DNA from: Microbacterium sp. SL75 | GTDB taxonomy: Bacteria; Actinomycetota; Actinomycetes; Actinomycetales; Microbacteriaceae | Assembly (NCBI RefSeq): GCF_026625865.1 | Contig: NZ_CP113067.1 | Location: forward strand, 1,798,001 to 1,862,000 | Length of the DNA: 64,000 nucleotides | Direction: 5' to 3' | In this document: piece after piece, positions 26,728-37,368 of the stretch | Position numbering within the stretch: position 1 is the stretch's first letter | How the letters are laid out: every line of letters begins with the position of its first letter | Translations under genes and position numbers: made by a program | Notes under the pieces: model-generated | Database searches by the model: none | Told to the model about the DNA's origin: nothing | The model's input: the letters and a program-made list of their open reading frames with translations, nothing else

Positions 26728-27357
26728 ATGGTGCTCGCAGGGCGTCGCGGCAGGGCAGTGATCGGCGTTGCCGTGGCGGTGTCGGCCCTCCTCGGTCTCA
26801 CCGGATGTGGAGCGCCGCCGTGGGCCCAGGGTGGCGGTGAGTCCCCGGAGTCGCCCTCGCCGTCGGCGACGGTGACGACCGCGCCGCAGCCTGTCCGTAA
26901 CGACCTGTCGAGTGGCTCCACGCAGCGTGCGCTGACGGCCGGCTCGGTGGCCGCAACGGTGAACTACTGGTCGACCCTGTCGATGGATCGTTGGACGGCG
27001 ACGGCTCTCAAACCCGTGAACCTGTCGATGGAGACGACGGTGACGCCCAACGACGGGCAGAAGGTGTATCTCCAGCGCGCCACGATGACAGCTGTTCCGG
27101 GGAACGCGTCGCAGTCCTTCTCGGCGCTCGCCCCGCAGAGCGATCAGACGGATGCGCCCGGCTACCTCGTCCTGTCGCCCTACAGCTACTCGCAGACCTT
27201 CAACGTCGGCGAGGTGCCCGCGGAGGCGACGTTCGTCACCTTGCAGTTCACGTTCGAGTTCCTCGTGCAGACCACCCCGACCTCCAACGAGTTCGCGAAG
27301 CAGACGGCGAGTGACACACTGACCGTCGCGATCGCCGGCGGGGCCGCCGCCGGTTGA
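26728..27357 (+). CDS. Secreted lipoprotein A of the glucan-type locus
   Basis: The 209-residue protein starts with a lipoprotein signal ending in the lipobox LTGC (Cys about residue 27) and a Ser/Pro-rich linker. The rest is a beta-rich domain of about 150 residues with no family I recognise. It is a paralogue of the lipoprotein at 30314: both have a WTAT segment, a KVYLQRA/RRVYVSS strand and a final strand pattern FVTLQFTFEF/YGITLEFALN. The start ATG 26728 follows GGGGGAGGA; TACACT at 26696-26701 may be the -10 box. The stop directly abuts the stop of the convergent membrane protein (TGATCA). Confidence 0.75.
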   Translation: MVLAGRRGRAVIGVAVAVSALLGLTGCGAPPWAQGGGESPESPSPSATVTTAPQPVRNDLSSGSTQRALTAGSVAATVNYWSTLSMDRWTATALKPVNLSMETTVTPNDGQKVYLQRATMTAVPGNASQSFSALAPQSDQTDAPGYLVLSPYSYSQTFNVGEVPAEATFVTLQFTFEFLVQTTPTSNEFAKQTASDTLTVAIAGGAAAG

Positions 27358-28476
27358 TCAGGGTCGGACGCGCTCCCAGCGATCGCCGCCCTGACGGGTG
27401 GCCTCACCGGCCGCGGCATCCGCATCGACGATGAGCGCAGCGAGGTCGTAGTCGGCTGTTTCCGCCGGCACCCACCCGATGCTCGCCGAGAGCTGGATGT
27501 CGATGCAGGAGGAGACATCGAGCTCCGTGATCTGTCGAAGAAGGGTACGCACGTGCTCGCGCAACACCGAGTCGGGGCGTGAGACGACGACGACCACTCG
27601 TCCTCGGACCTCCCGGCCCAGGTCCGCCTCGGCGGGGAAAGTGTCGGCGACGAGGGCCTCGAACTGACTCACGAGACGTAGCCAACCGCTTTCGCCGGCG
27701 GCGCTGCGCAGCTGAGCGGGGTCGTCGAGCCGAACCGTCAGCACTGCCCACGACTCTTCTCGTGCGCGGCGGGCTCGAGCCAGACGGTCTGACGCGGTGA
27801 CGATGAAATGCGGCCAACTCGATGCCGCGCGACGCCCGCTGGGCGATACCGACGTGAAGTACAGAAGGGATACGGTCGCGCACACCAGGAAGATGAGCAT
27901 TCCGAGCCCGTTGAGCACTCGAGGCAGCGCGAGGTCGCCCAGGGTCGTGGGCGCGGCGAGCCCCGACACGAGCGTGCCGATGCCGAGTGCGACGAAGGCG
28001 GACGAGACCACCGTCAGAGGCAGGGCGAGCCTCTCGAGACGGTCGGCCGCACGTCGCAGCTCCCACACGGTGAGCCCGGCGAACACGGATGACCCGAGGA
28101 AAGCCAAGCGGAATGCGAGGCCGTAGGCGCTGATCTCGTCCACGAGCACGAAGACGGCGGCGGTCGTCACTGCTTGGACTGCGCCCACCCAGGAGAAGGC
28201 AGGTGCACCGCGACGCGCGCGGAAACCCGACCAGATCAGTGCGGGTGCGCCGAGCATGAGGCCGAGACCCGCGCGGCGGATGGTCTCATCGTTCATGATC
28301 CCGCCCGTCACCGAGACCCAGGTGCTCGACATCGCCAGAACGAACGCCAGGGACCACAGAAGGGCGGAGCGAGAGGGGCGGTGCAGAAATCCCAGACCGA
28401 TGATCATGAGGCTGCCGAGAGTGGCGACCGTGGCCTGAGCCAAACCCAGGTTCGTCAGGACATCGGACGGCATCAC
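27358..28476 (-). CDS. Integral membrane protein with degenerate GGDEF domain (A)
   Basis: The 372 residues comprise six to seven membrane segments (about 1-210) and a cytoplasmic domain. That domain ends with the GGDEF-family hallmark SASIGWVPAE ... ADAAAGEATRQGGDR. At the place of the signature the protein reads REVRGRVVVVV instead of RxGGDEFxxxx, so both metal and substrate residues are lost and it cannot be a diguanylate cyclase. No RxxD I-site is visible. It could be a nucleotide receptor or a scaffold. The GTG start overlaps the kinase stop (GTGA), so kinase and this protein are co-translated. Confidence 0.75.
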   Translation of the reverse strand: MMPSDVLTNLGLAQATVATLGSLMIIGLGFLHRPSRSALLWSLAFVLAMSSTWVSVTGGIMNDETIRRAGLGLMLGAPALIWSGFRARRGAPAFSWVGAVQAVTTAAVFVLVDEISAYGLAFRLAFLGSSVFAGLTVWELRRAADRLERLALPLTVVSSAFVALGIGTLVSGLAAPTTLGDLALPRVLNGLGMLIFLVCATVSLLYFTSVSPSGRRAASSWPHFIVTASDRLARARRAREESWAVLTVRLDDPAQLRSAAGESGWLRLVSQFEALVADTFPAEADLGREVRGRVVVVVSRPDSVLREHVRTLLRQITELDVSSCIDIQLSASIGWVPAETADYDLAALIVDADAAAGEATRQGGDRWERVRP

Positions 28477-30140
28477 GGTGTTCCGGCCTCGACGCGGGAG
28501 GGGAGGATGACCGTCACCGTCGTGCCGGCACCCAACTCGCTCTCGAGGAAGAGAGAACCTCCCTGTTCCTCGACGATGCTCCGGATGATGCCCATACCGA
28601 GTCCGGTGCCGGGGGTGGGGCTCTCTCGCACCGACTGCGCGCGGAAGTACGGGTCGAAGACTCGCTCGAGGTCGTCGGGATGGATGCCGATGCCGGTGTC
28701 GGCGAAGTGGAGGACGACGTCGTCTGGTGAGAGTTCGCCGGAGATGCGGATCATGCCTCCCGCGGGCGTGTACTTGATCGCGTTGCTCAGGATGTTGTCG
28801 AACGCCTGCCGAAGGCGGAATGCGTCCCCGACCACCTCGGCGGTGTCGGGCAGGTCGTCCACCACGCTCACGCGGCGTGCCGCCGCTGCGGGGCGGAAAG
28901 ACGCCAGCGACGAGGCGATGATGCGGCTGGCATCGGCGGCGCCGGGGGAGGAGGATTCGCGGAACACCCCCCTCGAGGTGGCGAGGATCTCGGAGATGAG
29001 CTTCTGCATGCGCTCGCCGGCGCCGGCGATCACCTCGAGCTGCTCTCGCACCTTGGGTGAGAGGTCGGGGTCGTCGAGGGCGAGATCGGCGTGGCCGATG
29101 ATGGCGGTCAGCGGGTTACGCAACTCATGAGACACCGTCGCCGCGAGGCGCTCGCGCGCACGTTCGGACTCGATCAGCGCGGTGATGTCGTGGACGATGA
29201 GCAGCGTGCTCTCGGGCTCGTCGGAGGAGACGAGTCGGCGTGTCGATGCCGAGAGCGCGTGCCATTCGCCGTGGGGATCGAAGAGCCAGACGCGCTCGTC
29301 GTCGAACTGCTCTCCGCGCGATGCCCGCGCGAAGGGACGCTCGGCCTCGGGGAGGGGCTCTCCGCGGAGCGTCGCGTATTCGACCGCTGCCCCCGGACGC
29401 TGCGGTTCGTCGCGTTCGACCCCGTACAGGGCGACATACGTGTCGTTCAGCGCCAGCACTTCGCCGTCCACGGACAGGCGGGCGATGCCGGTGTCGAGCC
29501 CGTTCAGCATCTGCGACACCCGGCGTTCCTGGCCGGACACGCGCTGGAGGGTTCCCTGGAGTCGGCTGGCCTGGCGCCGCAGCAATTGCTTGAACGCCCT
29601 CGTCTGCCGCGCTGAGAGGAAGGAGGTGATGCCGATGAACGTCAGGGAGAGCAGAACGACGATCAGTCTGAGCGCTGTCACCGGGCCGGAGGCGTTCACC
29701 GTGGCGTCCACCACGATGATCATGCCGACCGTGCTGAGCGCGGAGATGAGGTACACGAGGGTGAAGTGGGTGGCGATCCAGATGATGGGAAAGACCCAGA
29801 AGAAACCGAAGCGCAGATCTGTGCCGAAGCTCAGAAGACCGATGCCGAGGATGTCGCCGAACGGAACGGCCGCGACCACGGACCGGGGGATCTTCTGCCA
29901 GGGCACGACGATCGCTATCGCCGTCAGGGCGATGATGACGCCCACGCCGGAGGAGAACGGCCACAGGGAGAACAGGGACGGCTCGAGAGCCTGGACCAGC
30001 AGGACCGTGATGACGACGCTCGCCCCCAGAACGAGCTGAAGAAGCCAAATCGACCGGGTGCGGCTGCCCGGGTTGGTCGCGTCATCGTCGGGGATGCCCT
30101 CCGAAGGAATCGCCGGAGGAACACTCCTCATGGATGCCAT
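28473..30140 (-). CDS. Sensor histidine kinase with membrane-embedded N-terminus
   Basis: The 555 residues hold about six membrane segments (residues 30-190), a PAS-like domain (about 210-320), the HisKA box VSHELRNPLTAIIGH (His about 337) and an ATPase domain with NILSNAIKYTP, ADTGIGIHPDD and GTGLGMGI. No HAMP or large extracellular domain is present, so the signal is probably sensed in or near the membrane. The start ATG 30140 lies 6 nt after TACACT (30152-30147), a leaderless layout. No response regulator is adjacent, but an OmpR-type one lies 4 kb away in the same locus and is the natural candidate partner. Confidence 0.9.
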   Translation of the reverse strand: MASMRSVPPAIPSEGIPDDDATNPGSRTRSIWLLQLVLGASVVITVLLVQALEPSLFSLWPFSSGVGVIIALTAIAIVVPWQKIPRSVVAAVPFGDILGIGLLSFGTDLRFGFFWVFPIIWIATHFTLVYLISALSTVGMIIVVDATVNASGPVTALRLIVVLLSLTFIGITSFLSARQTRAFKQLLRRQASRLQGTLQRVSGQERRVSQMLNGLDTGIARLSVDGEVLALNDTYVALYGVERDEPQRPGAAVEYATLRGEPLPEAERPFARASRGEQFDDERVWLFDPHGEWHALSASTRRLVSSDEPESTLLIVHDITALIESERARERLAATVSHELRNPLTAIIGHADLALDDPDLSPKVREQLEVIAGAGERMQKLISEILATSRGVFRESSSPGAADASRIIASSLASFRPAAAARRVSVVDDLPDTAEVVGDAFRLRQAFDNILSNAIKYTPAGGMIRISGELSPDDVVLHFADTGIGIHPDDLERVFDPYFRAQSVRESPTPGTGLGMGIIRSIVEEQGGSLFLESELGAGTTVTVILPSRVEAGTP

Positions 30141-30313
30141 TCTCCGAGTGTATAGAGAGTGGTGTAGTCTTCTGCGCGCCATCCTGTCTCTGCTCGCCCC
30201 GCGTGGTCCCGATCACGCCGTCCGGTCAGACTCCCCCTGAGGCCTGCATCCCGCAGTGTGATGGTCGATCATCGACCTCCCGCGCGTTTCGCGCCCTTCC
30301 TCAGGAGACACCT

Positions 30314-31117
30314 GTGAGCATGCCCTCTCGCCGTCGTGTGCGCGCAGCAGCCGCGACCGTCGCCCTCGCCCTCGCCCTGCCGACTGTCCTGTCCGGTTGC
30401 AGCCAGATCACCGATGTGCTCGGTGCGTTCCCCGGGCAGGCGGGGAGCAACCAGTCCGTCGTCGTGGCGACGCCCGCGCCGCAGGCCTCGGCGGGGACCA
30501 AGCCTTTCGACTCCCAGTTCACCTACGACGGGTCGGTGCGGCTGACCTCGGAGGTCGCCGACGGCCTCGAGCTGCGCCTCGATGTCTGGGCGGTCGACCC
30601 CAAGCGCACGATGGAGTGGACCGCGACGAACGAGAAGCAGCTCGGTTTCGCTGTCAACATCGTCGACGATCGCGTCGACGAGAAGGCGGTCCTCGCGCAG
30701 AAGCGGCGCGTCTACGTGTCGTCCATCTCCATCACCTCGCAGACCGCTCAGACCGGCGGCCAGGTCTCGAACCCGTTCCAGTTCAGCGCCGATCCGCGAA
30801 CGCTGGTCCCTTCGGACACCCTGCGTTCGGACCGGGGGCTTCTCCTCAACAGCTTCCAGGGCGGACTCCTGGTGCCGACGACGTCCATCCGCCAGCTCCC
30901 GGCAGACACGTACGGCATCACGCTGGAGTTCGCACTGAACGTGGCTGTCGAGGGCGCCGCGAACACGGACTCCTCCTTCAGCCAGCAGACCGTGTACCAG
31001 TACCTCCCCATCGCGATCTTCGCGGACGAGGGACAGTCCTCGAGCGGCACCAGCACGGGCACATCGAGCTCGACCGGGCGCGCTCCGGGCTGGGGCACGT
31101 CGACCGACCAGGGCTGA
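30314..31117 (+). CDS. Secreted lipoprotein B of the glucan-type locus
   Basis: This protein has 267 residues with a lipoprotein signal (lipobox LSGC) and a Gln/Ser/Pro linker. A beta-rich domain of about 190 residues and a Ser/Thr/Gly-rich tail complete it. The domain resembles that of lipoprotein A at 26728 over its whole length, so the two arose by duplication. The GTG at 30314 sits 6 nt after CAGGAGA; the ATG at 30320 is an alternative. Its stop is 6 nt from the stop of the convergent membrane protein B, the same arrangement as in pair A. Confidence 0.75.
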   Translation: MSMPSRRRVRAAAATVALALALPTVLSGCSQITDVLGAFPGQAGSNQSVVVATPAPQASAGTKPFDSQFTYDGSVRLTSEVADGLELRLDVWAVDPKRTMEWTATNEKQLGFAVNIVDDRVDEKAVLAQKRRVYVSSISITSQTAQTGGQVSNPFQFSADPRTLVPSDTLRSDRGLLLNSFQGGLLVPTTSIRQLPADTYGITLEFALNVAVEGAANTDSSFSQQTVYQYLPIAIFADEGQSSSGTSTGTSSSTGRAPGWGTSTDQG

Positions 31118-31123
31118 CCCGCC

Positions 31124-32203
31124 TCAGTCGGCTCTCGGCTGCCGCAGGCGAGGCCGCGCCCGGCGGCTCTCCATGAGCCACGAGAGATCGTCGACGTCCC
31201 TCAGAAGGTAGTGCTCGAAGACGAGGTCGGGGACGTCGTCGTAGTCGATCGAGGGCATGCGTCGCGCGAATGCGCGTCGCAAAGACTCCTCGACCTCTGC
31301 CGCAGCTGTCGCGGCGGGGTGGACGAGGAAGACCGCGTCGCGGGTGGGCATCCCGGTCACGACATCGGGTACGACGTCGGCGGCGGCGTCCGACACGGTG
31401 CGCAGCATCGTTTCGCCGAGCTCGCTGCTGTGGGCAGCGCGGATCAGATTGATCTCGGGAACGCGCACGAGGGTCGCCCGCACACCGGGGTGCTCGACGA
31501 GGAGTCGGGCGGTCTCGCGACGCAGAGTTCCACGGTCGTGCGCACGGGTGCCGGGAGCGGGGTCGTCGTCGAGCTGACGGCCGATCCATACGGCGCCGAC
31601 CGAGACCAGCGCGATCGCGATCGCGCTGACCGCAGCCGTGGTCTCGGGGGAGACGGGGCCCTGACGCAGCAGCGGCGCCATACCGGAGACGGCGGCGGCG
31701 GCCAGGCGGGCGAGGTTGTAGAGCGCGTACAGGCTCAGGGTCCAGGAGAGCAGACGAGCTCCGCTCAGTCGCCCCACGGGAGAGCGAGCGCACTCGAGCG
31801 CACCGAGAGCCGAGAACACGACGAGGCCGGCCGTCTTCAGGAGGGTTGCATCGTCGAGGGGCACGAGGAAGGTCAAGCCCAAGAGCAGGATGCCACCGGC
31901 GCCGGTGCTGATCGCGCCGATCGCGCGCCGACCGTTCAGTCGTCGCGCGCCCGCCCAGAGAAGACCGACCGCCATGACGTTGGTCGCGTTCCCGGCGGCC
32001 GCGGCTGCCACGGAGTCCCACGCGGTCTCCATCACGTTCAGCGCTCCGCACAGTAAAGCGGCGATGGCCGCCATGCCGAAGTACCGGACCATGTCCGCGC
32101 GTGGTCCGCCGCGGTCGTCCTCGGGTCGCCCGTGCGCCAGGAACAGCATGGTGAGGGCGACGCCCGCGGCGGCGATGGATGCCAGCAGAGCGAGGACGAT
32201 CAC
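31124..32203 (-). CDS. Integral membrane protein, possible degenerate GGDEF relative (B)
   Basis: The 359-residue protein has about seven membrane segments (1-215) and a cytoplasmic domain of about 140 residues. Size, topology and convergent position opposite a lipoprotein match membrane protein A. The cytoplasmic domain could be a further eroded GGDEF fold (TGMPTRDAVFLV at the place of the signature), but it lacks the ending that makes A recognisable, so this is uncertain. The GTG start follows GAAGGAG. Confidence 0.6.
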   Translation of the reverse strand: MIVLALLASIAAAGVALTMLFLAHGRPEDDRGGPRADMVRYFGMAAIAALLCGALNVMETAWDSVAAAAAGNATNVMAVGLLWAGARRLNGRRAIGAISTGAGGILLLGLTFLVPLDDATLLKTAGLVVFSALGALECARSPVGRLSGARLLSWTLSLYALYNLARLAAAAVSGMAPLLRQGPVSPETTAAVSAIAIALVSVGAVWIGRQLDDDPAPGTRAHDRGTLRRETARLLVEHPGVRATLVRVPEINLIRAAHSSELGETMLRTVSDAAADVVPDVVTGMPTRDAVFLVHPAATAAAEVEESLRRAFARRMPSIDYDDVPDLVFEHYLLRDVDDLSWLMESRRARPRLRQPRAD

Positions 32204-32347
32204 GGACGGTCGTCTCCTTCAGGTGCCCGTCGCAATCTTGCGGAAATCTTGCGGGGACGGTGGTCGTGTGCATCGGTCGTCTTGCGGCGAACCTACCAGA
32301 GTGGAACTCGGCCGATACGCCGCGAGAACCGACAGGAAGACACCGCC

Positions 32348-33817
32348 ATGACCGATGCGCGCAGCTTCACCCCCCACGCCCGGGACTTCGATATGCACCC
32401 GGGCGCGCTGGGAGCCGCCGGCGAGCACGGCTTCGCCGATGACTTCGCCGCGGTGCTCGAGAACACGTCGGTGCACCGTTCCACGATCGGTTGCGTCATC
32501 CCCGCCTACAACGAGGAAGAGTCGATCGCCGACGTCATCGAGGCGTTGCTCGCTCAGACCCGCGTGCCGGACGTCATCCACGTGGTCGTCAACAACACCT
32601 CCGACGCCACGGTGAAGATCGCTTCGGAGTACAGCGGCCCGCACGAGCTGAGCACCGAGCTCGGGGAGCAGTTCACCGAGGTCTTCGTCCACGACATCGG
32701 CAAGAACCCCGACAAGAAGGTCGGCGCGCTCAACTACGGGTACTCCCTCGTCGAGGGGTACGACTATCTCCTCGGCGTCGACGGAGACACCATCGCCGAC
32801 AGCAAGGCCGTCGAGTACCTCGAGACCGAGGCGATCTCCGACTCCCGCATCGGCGGTATCTCTGCGATCTACACGATCGACGACAAGCCCATCAAGGGCC
32901 TCGTCGCCCGGTTCCTCACCGCCGGCCAGCGCACGCAGTTCGCGGCGTTCAACCTGCAGAACATGCTGCGCGGTCGCAACATGGCGGTGCTCGGCGGTCA
33001 GTTCTCGATCTTCTCCACCAACGCCCTGCGCGACGCGATGAAACAGAACCACCAGAGCACCCCGTGGGTGAAGGACTCCGAGGTCGAGGACTCCCTGCTG
33101 TCCCTGCAGATCAAGAGCGCGGGCTACTTGACCAAGATCAGCCCGTACGCTCGCGCCGATGTGGGCGGCATGACCACGCTCTCCGGTTACGACGCCCAGC
33201 AGGTGAAGTGGACCTATGGCGCCATCGAGCTGATGTGGCCCGGACAGCGCGGCGACACCAAGGGGCAACCGTTCCACCCGAACCTCCGTCTGCGTTGGTT
33301 CGAGAACTTCGGCATGCTCACGAACCTCTTCGTCCGCGTGGCCTTCCTGACCCTTCTCGCCGGGTCGCTGACGATCCACGCCTTCGTCTTCTCGCCGATG
33401 TGGCTCATCCCGCCGGTGATCGCCATGCTGCTGAACCTCCGCATCGCCCGCACGATGAAGAACGTCGACCGCACAGACGTCCTGTTCGCGGTGCTGTTCT
33501 TCCCCGCGGAGATCTTCATGTGGATCCGTATCAGTCACTTCGTCCGCTCGTGGACCCGATTCCTCTCGCGCAAGAAGGTCGACAACTGGGCGATGCAGGC
33601 CAAGGCCGAGCGCGGTGGGGGACTCGGACACTGGACGCCGATGGTCGTGCTCATCGCCGTCGCCATCGCCCTCGCGGTGATCTGGGTCATGGTCGGCCCC
33701 ATGGTGCAGTCGTCGATCCTGTGGATCGGTTGGCCCATCGTCGGCGTCGTGACCGTTCTTCAGACGCTCCTCATGTTCTCCAAGCTCGTCCGTCGCCACC
33801 ACGGCTTCAAGGTCTGA
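32348..33817 (+). CDS. Family 2 processive glycosyltransferase (cellulose synthase-like)
   Basis: The 489-residue membrane enzyme has the GT2 pattern: nucleotide-binding PAYNEEES (52-59), DGD (145-147) for the metal, the acceptor-site Glu-Asp in SEVEDSLLSLQ (247-248) and QQVKW (284-288) in place of the classical QxxRW. Two to three membrane segments lie at about 330-410 and two at 450-480. There is no PilZ domain. Processive beta-glycan synthesis (glucan or N-acetylglucosamine polymer) fits. ATG at 32348 follows AGGAAGA. The GH6 enzyme 1 kb away points to a beta-1,4-glucan product; this is inference. Confidence 0.85.
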   Translation: MTDARSFTPHARDFDMHPGALGAAGEHGFADDFAAVLENTSVHRSTIGCVIPAYNEEESIADVIEALLAQTRVPDVIHVVVNNTSDATVKIASEYSGPHELSTELGEQFTEVFVHDIGKNPDKKVGALNYGYSLVEGYDYLLGVDGDTIADSKAVEYLETEAISDSRIGGISAIYTIDDKPIKGLVARFLTAGQRTQFAAFNLQNMLRGRNMAVLGGQFSIFSTNALRDAMKQNHQSTPWVKDSEVEDSLLSLQIKSAGYLTKISPYARADVGGMTTLSGYDAQQVKWTYGAIELMWPGQRGDTKGQPFHPNLRLRWFENFGMLTNLFVRVAFLTLLAGSLTIHAFVFSPMWLIPPVIAMLLNLRIARTMKNVDRTDVLFAVLFFPAEIFMWIRISHFVRSWTRFLSRKKVDNWAMQAKAERGGGLGHWTPMVVLIAVAIALAVIWVMVGPMVQSSILWIGWPIVGVVTVLQTLLMFSKLVRRHHGFKV

Positions 33818-33855
33818 CGGACGCAAGATCTGATACGCCCGAACGCATCAGAAAC

Positions 33856-33893
33856 ACGGATGCCTCGGCCCTGGGGAGGGTCGAGGCATCCGT
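33856..33893. terminator. Bidirectional terminator between glycosyltransferase and response regulator
   Basis: A 16-bp stem with one wobble pair (33856-33871 with 33878-33893) and a 6-nt loop lies between the convergent stops. Confidence 0.75.
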
Positions 33894-33908
33894 CATGTGT
33901 GCGGGGCG

Positions 33909-34850
33909 TCAGGGAGTGGAGAGCAACTCCGAGGTGAGGCGATAGCCCACCCCACGTACCGTTTCGATGTAACGCGGGTTGGCCGGGTTGTCGCCGAGCT
34001 TGCGGCGCAGGTTTGTCATGTGCGCCTCGATCGCCCGCTTGTCGGCTTCTCCGACGAAGTAGCTCGTCACGTACGACTCGCCGCGCAGGACCAGAGTGAG
34101 GTCGGCCTTGCTGCGCACCCGCCGCTTGGACTCCATCAGGGTCGCGAGCAGGTCGAACTCCGTGCGGGTGAGTTCCAGCTCCTCCCCGCCGACGCGCACG
34201 AGGCGGCTGTCGGGATCGAGCAGCAGATCTCGGTGAGCCACCCAGGCGCCACCGGTGGGCGTGAGTTCTCCGGCCGCCGAGCGGGGGACGATCTCGCCAC
34301 CCGGCGCCGCCTCGCGCGGCTCCGGGCCCTGGGAGGACGGCACGATGACGGCCGCCGTGGAAGGGGCGTTCGCCGCCTGCGGTGCGACGGGTGCCTCAGG
34401 GCGCCCGGCGGGGAAGGACGGGCCCACGCTGTCTTGGCGGGGGGCCGAGGAAACGGCGGACTCCCCGGCGCGGGGGCGGCGGAGCAGCGCTTCGATGCGC
34501 GCGCGAAGCTCGCGGGGGCGGAACGGTTTCACGACGTACTCGTCGGCGCCGGCGCCGAGGCCGAGCACGACGTCGGCCTCTTCTTCGAGACCGGTGAGCA
34601 TGATGATGTAGGTGTCGCTCTTCTGACGAATCCGACGCGCGGCTTCGAAGCCGTCGATGCCCGGCATGTTGACGTCCAGCGTGGTGATCAGCGGCTGATA
34701 CGCGATGACGGCGCGAACCCCGTCGATGCCGTTGCCGACGGAGACGGTCGAGAACCCCGCAGACTCGAGCACTTCGACAAGCAGGTGGCGGATATCGGGA
34801 TCGTCTTCCACGATCACGGCTGTTTTCAGCATCTCGGTGCTGTCGCTCAT
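33909..34850 (-). CDS. OmpR-type response regulator with long linker
   Basis: The 313-residue protein begins with a receiver domain (acidic pair EDD 15-17, phospho-acceptor Asp59 in TTLDVNMPG, Lys in VVKPFRP). A Pro/Ala-rich linker of about 90 residues follows, about five times the usual length, then a winged-helix DNA-binding domain (TRTEFDLLATLMES ... HMTNLRRKLGDNP ... VRGVGYRL). Start ATG 34850 gives SDSTEMLKTAVIVEDD. It is convergent with the glycosyltransferase and upstream of the GH6 gene's 3' end. Partnership with the kinase at 28473 is inferred from co-location. Confidence 0.9.
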   Translation of the reverse strand: MSDSTEMLKTAVIVEDDPDIRHLLVEVLESAGFSTVSVGNGIDGVRAVIAYQPLITTLDVNMPGIDGFEAARRIRQKSDTYIIMLTGLEEEADVVLGLGAGADEYVVKPFRPRELRARIEALLRRPRAGESAVSSAPRQDSVGPSFPAGRPEAPVAPQAANAPSTAAVIVPSSQGPEPREAAPGGEIVPRSAAGELTPTGGAWVAHRDLLLDPDSRLVRVGGEELELTRTEFDLLATLMESKRRVRSKADLTLVLRGESYVTSYFVGEADKRAIEAHMTNLRRKLGDNPANPRYIETVRGVGYRLTSELLSTP

Positions 34851-34971
34851 GTCACCCACTCTTCCGGCTTCGCACGGGACCGTGCCCGCGTTCTTCCCCG
34901 AGTCGCGGCGTCGCAGCGCGACGAGCGCAATTTTGGCACACATCGCGGCTGCGACGCGGTCGACTCGGAGC

Positions 34972-35997
34972 TCAGCGCTGTTCGCGTGTCAGTTCCGCTG
35001 CCGCGGCAGGCCACCACACGCCCGCGGCGGGACCGCCGTTGCACTCGCCGTCGCTCTCGCCTGCAGGCTTGATCCATAGGTTGGTGTCGACGACGTCGTC
35101 GCCGTACGAGCCGCCCGGGCTGCCGACCAGGCGGTCGGAGGGATTGCACCATTCCGAGCCCGCCGGTCCTGCGCCGTTGCGCGAGGTGTCGATCACGGCG
35201 TGAGTGCCTCCGAGAAGATCGGACAGGGCGTGCGCGTAGGCGAACTCGGCGGCAGTGTCCTGGTAGTTCGAGACGTTCAGGGCGACGCCGCGCACTTCGG
35301 GCAGAATCCCCATCGCCCGGATGAGCCCCGCCATTTCAGCGGCAGGGTGCCAGGCGGAGTGGCCGCCGTCGATGTAGACCCACGTGTTGGTGCCACGGAT
35401 GTTCTCGACAGCTTGCTGCAAGTACCCGGCGCGATCGCTCACGGACCCGCACGAGGAGGACAAAGCGATGCTGTCGGGCTCGAGCACCACGATCTTCTGG
35501 AGGTCCGACGCGTTGCGCAGGGCATCGCCGATGCGTTTCGTCCATTGCGCGTACGACGAGGGGTCGAGGCCTCCGGCCGAGTGGTTTCCGCAGTCACGGT
35601 CGGGCAGCCCGTAGACCGCTATCGAGAGCGACGCCTTCTGATCGCGAGCCTCCGCTGCGAGGTGTGCGATGCGGTCCCACACCTCGTCGACGGGGTCGAT
35701 CTCGGGGGTGAGCCAGTAGGTGGTGGGCTGCAAGGAGAGCCACTGCGCGGCGGCGACCTCGTCGGCGTCCCCGCCGCCCGAGCGAGCAGCCTGGGCGGCC
35801 TTGGACTCGTTCGGTGCGACGATCCGGGTGTCGACGGCCGGTGGTTTCGCCGACAGAGTCTGGAAGAGAGTGGTCACCAGGCTTCCGACGACGCCGATTC
35901 CCGCGATGACCGCCACGATCGCGACGACTGCGCCAGCGACGAGAAGCGCGCGGGGGAGCCGTCGTCGGGGCCGCTTCGGCCGAGATGATCTCGCCAC
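34972..35997 (-). CDS. Membrane-anchored glycoside hydrolase family 6 (endoglucanase-like)
   Basis: The 341-residue protein has a basic N-terminus and one membrane anchor (residues about 16-40), then a GH6 domain. Signatures are VYGLPDRDCGNHSAGG (region of the catalytic acid), VVLEPDSIAL, YIDGGHSAWHP, NVSNYQ, DTSRNGAGP and LWIKPAGESDG. GH6 enzymes cut beta-1,4-glucans by inversion. A dedicated endoglucanase is a normal companion of cellulose synthases. The GTG at 35997 follows TAGAGT (36010-36005) by 7 nt, a leaderless start; an in-frame ATG at 36105 would place the promoter inside the gene. Confidence 0.9.
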   Translation of the reverse strand: MARSSRPKRPRRRLPRALLVAGAVVAIVAVIAGIGVVGSLVTTLFQTLSAKPPAVDTRIVAPNESKAAQAARSGGGDADEVAAAQWLSLQPTTYWLTPEIDPVDEVWDRIAHLAAEARDQKASLSIAVYGLPDRDCGNHSAGGLDPSSYAQWTKRIGDALRNASDLQKIVVLEPDSIALSSSCGSVSDRAGYLQQAVENIRGTNTWVYIDGGHSAWHPAAEMAGLIRAMGILPEVRGVALNVSNYQDTAAEFAYAHALSDLLGGTHAVIDTSRNGAGPAGSEWCNPSDRLVGSPGGSYGDDVVDTNLWIKPAGESDGECNGGPAAGVWWPAAAAELTREQR

Positions 35998-36072
35998 GTT
36001 CGGAACTCTAGTCGAGGTGGCACCCGCCGGGGTCGAGGTAGTTAATCGGGTGAAGCGATATAGACTCACTTC

Positions 36073-36393
36073 GTGGGAAAACTGGTTTACAACACCGCGG
36101 GTCATTCATTCGATATCGAAGATCGGACGCTCTCCCACCTACGCATGGTCTTCATGAACAAGCTGCGTAGAGGCGAGTCGTTCATGTTCCACTTCCCGAT
36201 GGGCGACGGCAGCGGCACGCGTACGCTCTGGATCTCTCCGTCCATCCCGCTCGTCTTTCACTTCTACGGCAGTCGTGCGCCGCAGCTGAATCGTCGGTGG
36301 ATCGAGGACCTCATGGACGAAGCCAGCTCCCCGCAAGGACTCAGCGTCACGGCCGAGCCCGACCCCGAGTCCGTCCTGACGTCGTCGGGCTGA
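36073..36393 (+). CDS. DUF7882 family small protein, copy 1
   Basis: The 106-residue protein starts MGKLVYNTAGHSFDIEDRTL and contains the two motifs shared by all three copies in this window: KLRRGESF and LWISPSIPL. Members were once mislabelled as ATP-dependent DNA ligase; no ligase motif is present and the function is unknown. The start is GTG 36073, 6 nt after TAGACT (36061-36066), so it is probably leaderless and divergent from the GH6 gene. It is the most distant of the three copies. Its stop is 6 nt from that of the convergent MarR gene. Confidence 0.8.
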   Translation: MGKLVYNTAGHSFDIEDRTLSHLRMVFMNKLRRGESFMFHFPMGDGSGTRTLWISPSIPLVFHFYGSRAPQLNRRWIEDLMDEASSPQGLSVTAEPDPESVLTSSG

Positions 36394-36983: not shown

Positions 36984-37008
36984 CACGACGGTCGTGATCT
37001 CGTATCAT
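36984..37008 (+). promoter_or_regulatory. Possible operator and -10 box of DUF7882 copy 2
   Basis: A 13-bp inverted repeat, CACGAC-G-GTCGTG (36984-36996), lies 6 bp upstream of TATCAT (37003-37008), a good -10 box for the gene at 37042. It could bind the divergent MarR regulator. Confidence 0.4.
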
Positions 37009-37041
37009 TTCCGGCAGGACGCACCCGGGAAGGAGAGGCCG

Positions 37042-37368
37042 ATGGGCTCACTGTTCTACGGGTCTTCCGCGAGTCCGATCCGCATGCCCGACCGCATCCT
37101 CGCTCACATCAAAGTCGTCGTCGCGACCAAGCTGCGGCGCGGGGAGAGCTTCACGATGTCATGGCGGCATCCCTCCGGTGAACCGACCGGCCGGAGCACC
37201 CTGTGGATACAGCCGTCCATTCCGCTGCGATTCGTCTTCGCCTCCGCGGAAGCCGAGGTCCTCGACCCGGCGCTCCTTCACTCGCTCGCGAATTCCGCGA
37301 ACTCTTCCGGAGGCCTGACTCTCGAGCTCGACGACATCACCGAGGCCGTCATCTCCGACGCGCGCTGA
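37042..37368 (+). CDS. DUF7882 family small protein, copy 2
   Basis: The 108-residue protein begins MGSLFYGSSASPIRMPDRIL and has KVVVATKLRRGESFTMSW and LWIQPSIPLRFVF. It is much closer to copy 3 (49341) than to copy 1. ATG 37042 follows AAGGAGAGG. No membrane segment, signal peptide or Cys pair is present, so a cytoplasmic single-domain protein is likely. Function unknown. It is divergent from the MarR gene at 36400. Confidence 0.85.
   Translation: MGSLFYGSSASPIRMPDRILAHIKVVVATKLRRGESFTMSWRHPSGEPTGRSTLWIQPSIPLRFVFASAEAEVLDPALLHSLANSANSSGGLTLELDDITEAVISDAR

Follow-up and report, generated by a model that had tools for sequence, protein, structure and literature searches.

Cellulose synthase systems of the Bcs kind include a dedicated beta-1,4-glucanase, BcsZ, and in Listeria the PssC protein of the Pss exopolysaccharide cluster is a family 2 glycosyltransferase (GT2). 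In Streptomyces, a cellulose-like tip glycan is made by the CslA-GlxA-CslZ system, in which CslZ is a lipoprotein of glycoside hydrolase family 6 (GH6), as stated in PMC9040799. The degenerate GGDEF protein of the Listeria cluster, PssE, retains the I-site motif RxxD and binds cyclic di-GMP (c-di-GMP; PMC4125290). Here we compare with these systems a locus of eight genes (positions 26728-36105) found in Microbacterium sp. SL75, whose genome is a single contig of 3.44 Mb. The stretch analyzed, referred to as the window, comprises 64,000 nucleotides (positions 1,798,001 to 1,862,000 of contig NZ_CP113067.1). The locus codes for a GT2 synthase, a membrane-anchored GH6 endoglucanase, two lipoproteins (A and B), a sensor histidine kinase (HK), an OmpR-type response regulator (RR) with a long linker, and two membrane proteins with a degenerate GGDEF fold (GGDEF1 and GGDEF2). 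All eight genes had been proposed in a preliminary description of the sequence, and their presence was borne out by the list of open reading frames (ORFs) and by family scans. The explanation that we favor, with a probability of about 0.58, is that the locus directs the synthesis of a surface beta-1,4-linked glycan, most likely a beta-glucan, under two-component control.

The neighborhood of the GT2 gene was compared in a sample of 80 named GT2 loci, of which the 62 with at least 9 kb on either side of GT2 were counted and 18 were dropped. Matches were scored within 10 kb of GT2 by tblastn at E 1e-4, a threshold at which some HK matches may be other kinases. The RR and GH6 genes were found in all 62 loci, lipoprotein A in 61, HK and GGDEF1 in 50 each, lipoprotein B in 46, and GGDEF2 in 22, with 13 contents or orders overall. 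Among the control genes, truA and EEP were present in 53 loci each and DUF7882 and MarR in 19 each; none of the four was labeled in any of 20 loci from other genera or families (17 of them centered on GT2). Other genera held the kinase, GGDEF-fold protein, lipoprotein, GT2, RR, and GH6 genes in differing orders. In the family sample, GT2 was present in 24 of 150 genomes, one of which (G134, 214 bits) was dropped, leaving 23 with at least 500 bits. Lipoprotein A lay no more than 6 kb from GT2 in 21 of these 23 (the exceptions being G029 and G097), and GH6 was found in 19, G033 being cut by a contig end. A class sample of 296 genomes contained GT2 in 15, of which 11 were outside the family. Among these 11, a lipoprotein gene adjoined GT2 in 10, GH6 and RR were present in eight (the G272 locus being truncated by a contig end), the HK and GGDEF genes lay near GT2 in three, and a 4-nt overlap of the GT2 and lipoprotein genes was seen in five, with start codons chosen by script. 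A phylum sample of 396 genomes gave three GT2 matches, all already known and none outside the class. The most persistent pair across families is GT2 and the lipoprotein. This neighborhood search showed that the genes are kept together in related genomes, so that the outcome named in the preliminary description as refuting its system idea did not arise. The synteny and the homologues support a conserved system in which a GT2 of the processive type is joined with a beta-1,4-glucanase, with lipoproteins, and with two-component signaling.

The titled isolates closest to the window by GT2 were those of M. testaceum (98-99%; 80 relatives, mostly titled Microbacterium). Three genomes of the same genus (G106, G284, and G314) gave no match to GT2 or lipoprotein A; not all members of the genus thus carry the locus, through loss or original absence. 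A contig titled Stenotrophomonas maltophilia P13 (L059) also carried the locus, probably through assembly contamination.

The GT2 gene (32348-33817, plus strand) codes for a protein of 489 amino acids (aa) with the motifs D86, D145-x-D147, E247-D248, and QQVKW (284-288), which were invariant in 24 of 24 aligned rows. This motif layout is that of processive GT2s, save for a lysine replacing the arginine of QxxRW. A hydropathy scan placed about four to five transmembrane (TM) segments at the C-terminus and none at the N-terminus; the AlphaFold model was poor (mean predicted local distance difference test score, pLDDT, 50.8). Searches of PDB sequences yielded no close relative, and no characterized close relative was found. 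BcsA was absent from the 11 NCBIfam families matching the protein at E 0.1, and at E 1 only GT2 families of Pfam were matched, with no PilZ. The best NCBIfam model was PgaC_IcaA (E 1.2e-13), scoring 50.8 bits where the cut-off is 422.3. On these sequence grounds, the enzyme is outside the BcsA line. Tree building with 23 rows separated the GT2s of the locus, along with those of four phages and of a Lacticaseibacillus plasmid, from PgaC/IcaA; the rows of PgaC, IcaA, G134, and the second GT2 of G040 are long branches, so that deep placement in this tree is unsure. In the tree alignment QxxKW was common to the locus, phage, and Lacticaseibacillus rows, whereas PgaC, IcaA, and the second GT2 of G040 had QxxRW, and the distant G134 row read QQVKR. 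The second, more distant GT2 of G040 (L133:11784-13382) adjoins the GT2-lipoprotein pair of that genome, and no GH6 or two-component genes of the locus kind were found in its region.

The product of the GH6 gene (34972-36105, minus strand) matched Pfam PF01341 (E 4.9e-49), and its nearest solved structure was endoglucanase E-2 (1tml, E 4.5e-44). Four aspartates aligned with those that we take to be the catalytic residues of endoglucanase E-2, and they were kept in 66 of 66 rows; the family domain and the aspartates at the catalytic positions are thus both present, as expected of a GH6 member. The protein has a single TM segment at residues 55-73. The GTG at 35997, which is codon 37 of the ORF, may be the true start, since the gene would then not overlap the divergent gene that begins at 36073. 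Two small DUF7882 (PF25355) proteins are encoded at 36073-36393 and 36994-37368, on either side of a MarR-like gene; as the first was linked in only 19 of the 62 loci, it was excluded from the locus.

The locus resembles CslA-GlxA-CslZ, as described in PMC9040799, in that an actinobacterial GT2 adjoins a membrane-bound GH6 enzyme. It differs in that its GH6 is TM-anchored whereas CslZ is held by a lipobox, and in the addition of a lipoprotein, a two-component system, and a GGDEF-fold protein. No GlxA radical copper oxidase or lytic polysaccharide monooxygenase was detected by Pfam among the ten proteins scanned. The pairing of GT2 with GH6 is already known from Streptomyces CslA and CslZ, so it is not new, and GH6 cannot be counted, as it was in the preliminary description, among the parts that distinguish the locus from cellulose-like synthase systems, CslZ itself being a GH6 enzyme (PMC9040799). 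As in Bcs, the GT2 motifs have the layout of processive enzymes and a beta-1,4-glucanase is dedicated to the system, but the locus GT2 lacks PilZ and a BcsA match, and no BcsB family was found among the ten proteins scanned at the locus. The poly-N-acetylglucosamine synthases PgaC and IcaA provide the nearest named GT2 model, with named plasmid matches at 22-26% identity; however, the score is far below the cut-off, their motif is QxxRW and that of the locus QxxKW, and no deacetylase family was present among the same ten proteins. Phages of Microbacterium, Brevibacterium, and Lactobacillus encode GT2s in which QxxKW likewise occurs, as seen in four aligned rows (L199:3998-5074, L200:4004-5077, L201:2914-4404, and L204:644-2128). 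Altogether 32 phage records matched the locus GT2, 11 of them from Microbacterium phages, with 25-31% identity among the matches listed (10 of the 32 records). No lipoprotein, GH6, or two-component gene was annotated within 3-4 kb of the phage GT2 in three stretches, where most genes are labeled "hypothetical protein". The gene set was not found described in the literature searched (titles and abstract openings, with most subscription journals outside), and neither were the lipoproteins or control by a kinase-GGDEF pair.

Lipoprotein A (26728-27357, plus strand) has 209 aa and the lipobox LTGC, and lipoprotein B (30314-31117, plus strand) has 267 aa counted from the GTG at 30314, which is preceded by a Shine-Dalgarno-like AGGAG. 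Scored with a permissive pattern, a lipobox was present in 70 of 72 A rows and 53 of 55 B rows. Profile-profile alignment of A with B covered 205 columns (probability 96, E 1.4e-9), and each profile weakly matched the other kind in some genomes; by these comparisons, the two are paralogues. The lipoprotein adjoining GT2 was A-like in other genera of the family, whereas in other families nine genomes had a B-like copy there and one an A-like copy. Structure prediction, which the preliminary description had suggested, gave for lipoprotein A a confident beta sandwich (mean pLDDT 84.2, confident from about residue 56). The predicted fold has some likeness to those of arrestin C-domains, ApaG, and transglutaminase sandwiches, but sandwiches of this type are widespread and do not indicate a function. 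No bacterial glycan-synthesis partner was prominent among the 50 matches listed in the fold search, and PDB sequence searches with the lipoproteins gave no close match.

The HK gene (28473-30182, minus strand) codes for a kinase with about five to six TM helices by hydropathy scan, a weak PAS match, and HisKA and HATPase domains above the Pfam cut-off. It overlaps by 4 nt the GGDEF1 gene (27358-28476, minus strand), which codes for a multi-spanning membrane protein of 372 aa, and of 54 HK-GGDEF1 pairs lying on one strand, 40 had the same overlap. The RR gene (33909-34943, minus strand; its start is perhaps an inner ATG near 34850) codes for a receiver (residues 43-151) and a Trans_reg_C domain (253-336) separated by a linker of about 100 residues. 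The phospho-acceptor histidine of HK was kept in 58 of 58 rows and the aspartate of RR in 64 of 64. GGDEF1 gave a weak match to Pfam GGDEF (18.1 bits against a cut-off of 23.8), and GGDEF2 (31124-32203, minus strand), the second membrane protein, gave none; three GGDEF-fold orthologues of other genera reached 58.9, 44.9, and 35.9 bits. The GGDEF1 and GGDEF2 profiles matched one and the same GGDEF-fold gene in eight of nine other-genus loci. As far as sequence comparison goes, GGDEF1 and GGDEF2 are homologous, paralogues of one component, and the locus is one ancestral set with its lipoprotein and GGDEF-fold parts doubled. What the preliminary description listed as paired lipoproteins and as two membrane proteins is therefore present, each pair consisting of paralogues of one component.

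The degeneration of the GGDEF fold was followed in 114 rows (58 GGDEF1, 31 GGDEF2, 24 from other genera or families, and one from a second locus of the same genome). The GGDEF/GGEEF signature was kept in none of them, and neither were the R and D of the I-site (RxxD), both motifs being intact in four of four yardstick domains. The strings GGDDF/SGDDL (8 rows) and RxxD...GGD (4 rows) were considered as intact motifs and rejected, since by alignment column they lie outside the signature slot. The second HK/GGDEF-fold/RR locus of the genome, which is unlinked to the first but paralogous to it (L146:4230-7441, about 3428229-3431440), codes for a receiver-only regulator (52.5% identical), a GGDEF-fold membrane protein, and a kinase (35% identical), the kinase and GGDEF genes again overlapping by 4 nt; its neighbors are genes that by inspection are coaE- and uvrB-like. 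In the whole genome no EAL match was found, and the sole further GGDEF match (PF00990, E 0.001), which is degenerate, belongs to this second locus. Since the second locus is of the same build, the kinase-GGDEF pair looks like a signaling unit in its own right.

Based on these data, we propose that GT2 would polymerize a chain and extrude it through its own membrane helices, that the lipoproteins on the outer face beside GT2 would receive, guide, or anchor this chain, and that the membrane-anchored GH6 would trim or release it. HK and the GGDEF-fold protein, made together from overlapping genes, would form one sensor unit responding to the state of the membrane or wall, in which the GGDEF fold, lacking the cyclase signature and the I-site, probably acts as a protein partner. 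The OmpR-type regulator would then set the expression of the synthesis genes. The product, processivity, chain handling by the lipoproteins, the physical HK-GGDEF complex, and the regulon are the elements that we infer. A glucan is the probable product because GH6 accompanies GT2, and GH6 is the single component that points to it; of the beta-glucan surface system under two-component control put forward in the preliminary description, it is the conserved gene set that stands, with the glucan as its conditional part.

Several observations weigh against this proposal. The synteny of the 62 loci comes largely from one broad genus, in which truA and EEP also lie within 10 kb in 53 loci, and the nearest named GT2 family, PgaC/IcaA, far below its cut-off, gives a glucan no support. 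GH6 was without any match in three of the 23 family genomes with GT2 (G040, G060, and G097), and in eight of the 11 other-family genomes the search revealed no HK/GGDEF pair close to GT2; neither is therefore essential to GT2. Of the two lipoproteins, A is kept with GT2 in 61 of 62 loci; B is no constant component, being detected in eight of the 150 family genomes and GT2-linked only in that of the window. In G356, GT2 is separate from its two lipoprotein genes. A search in 61 genomes and the window found no DNA word shared upstream of lipoA, lipoB, GT2, and GH6 above the level of random control stretches, so that the regulon is put forward as an inference and no RR-binding site is claimed.

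It is possible, although rather unlikely, that GT2 makes another polymer, for instance a glycan of amino sugars or the backbone of a heteroglycan, and that GH6 cuts some other or mixed beta-1,4 bond. The preference of GT2 for the PgaC_IcaA model, the failure of any BcsA model to match it at E 0.1, and its grouping with uncharacterized phage and Lacticaseibacillus enzymes would fit such a product, and GH6 members also act on xylan or chitin (PMC9040799). This is opposed by the retention of GH6 with GT2 in 62 of 62 loci and in eight of 11 other-family genomes, and by the fact that its nearest structures are endoglucanases. Moreover, GH6 enzymes are chiefly beta-1,4-glucanases.

It is very improbable that exopolysaccharide synthesis is gated here by c-di-GMP, as in Listeria Pss, through GGDEF-fold proteins of the locus acting as receptors. 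Listeria pssA-E is likewise an exopolysaccharide cluster that includes a degenerate GGDEF protein (PMC4125290), and its PssC is of the GT2 type. In four genomes of the family (G011, G026, G090, and G093), the gene of an intact GGDEF-EAL protein lies beside the GH6 gene (L161:12769-15240, L162:12635-15094, L193:4528-6975, and L142:1433-3706), 4-58 nt from it in three genomes, while in G090 about 640 nt that contain a small ORF separate the two genes. The GGDEF signature and RxxD are present in all four proteins, and both domains were above the Pfam cut-off in the three scanned. However, PssE keeps the I-site and binds c-di-GMP (PMC4125290), whereas the GGDEF-fold proteins of the locus, which stand beside a two-component system, have lost signature and I-site in 114 of 114 rows, including those of these same four genomes. 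Furthermore, neither an EAL domain nor an intact GGDEF was found in the genome of the window, and an EAL match was absent in 11 of the 23 family genomes with GT2. No relatives of the GGDEF-EAL proteins were detected in 79 Microbacterium-type loci compared. Because the I-site is missing from the locus GGDEF-fold proteins even where a GGDEF-EAL protein is encoded nearby, c-di-GMP would seem to be a local addition and not a common control of the locus, and the analogy with PssE drawn in the preliminary description does not hold. Readings based on BcsA, on GlxA, and on a c-di-GMP receptor were rejected in view of the lack of BcsA and PilZ, the lack of GlxA among the scanned proteins, and the loss of the I-site, respectively. 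Very improbable is a locus for sensing and degrading plant cellulose, in which GH6 feeds the cell and GT2 is a bystander: among soil actinobacteria, breakdown of plant cellulose is a common role of GH6 cellulases, and some loci belong to strains plant-associated by name (such as Leaf151 and Leaf288), but this GH6 is TM-anchored, and across families GT2 and lipoprotein stay paired more often than GH6 is retained, also where GH6 is missing (G155, G040, and G060).

Beyond a two-component-controlled synthase of a surface beta-1,4-linked glycan, the locus might, as a tentative extension, represent a new class of glycan machine of Actinomycetes, in which a QxxKW GT2 works with a sandwich lipoprotein in place of BcsB/PgaB, protein-protein signaling by HK and GGDEF replaces c-di-GMP, and phage GT2s remodel the same polymer. 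If true, this machine would use a GT2 without N-terminal helices, whose gene is overlapped by that of the lipoprotein in some families, and phages of the same hosts would hold a cut-down version of the GT2. According to our literature searches, little is known about the surface-polysaccharide genetics of Microbacterium and its relatives, which are hosts of many collected phages. GGDEF folds would be retained here for signaling in a genome where no intact GGDEF/EAL enzyme of c-di-GMP turnover was found. The lipoprotein family is a likely extracellular partner of the GT2 synthase, and the locus offers a compact gene set open to testing.

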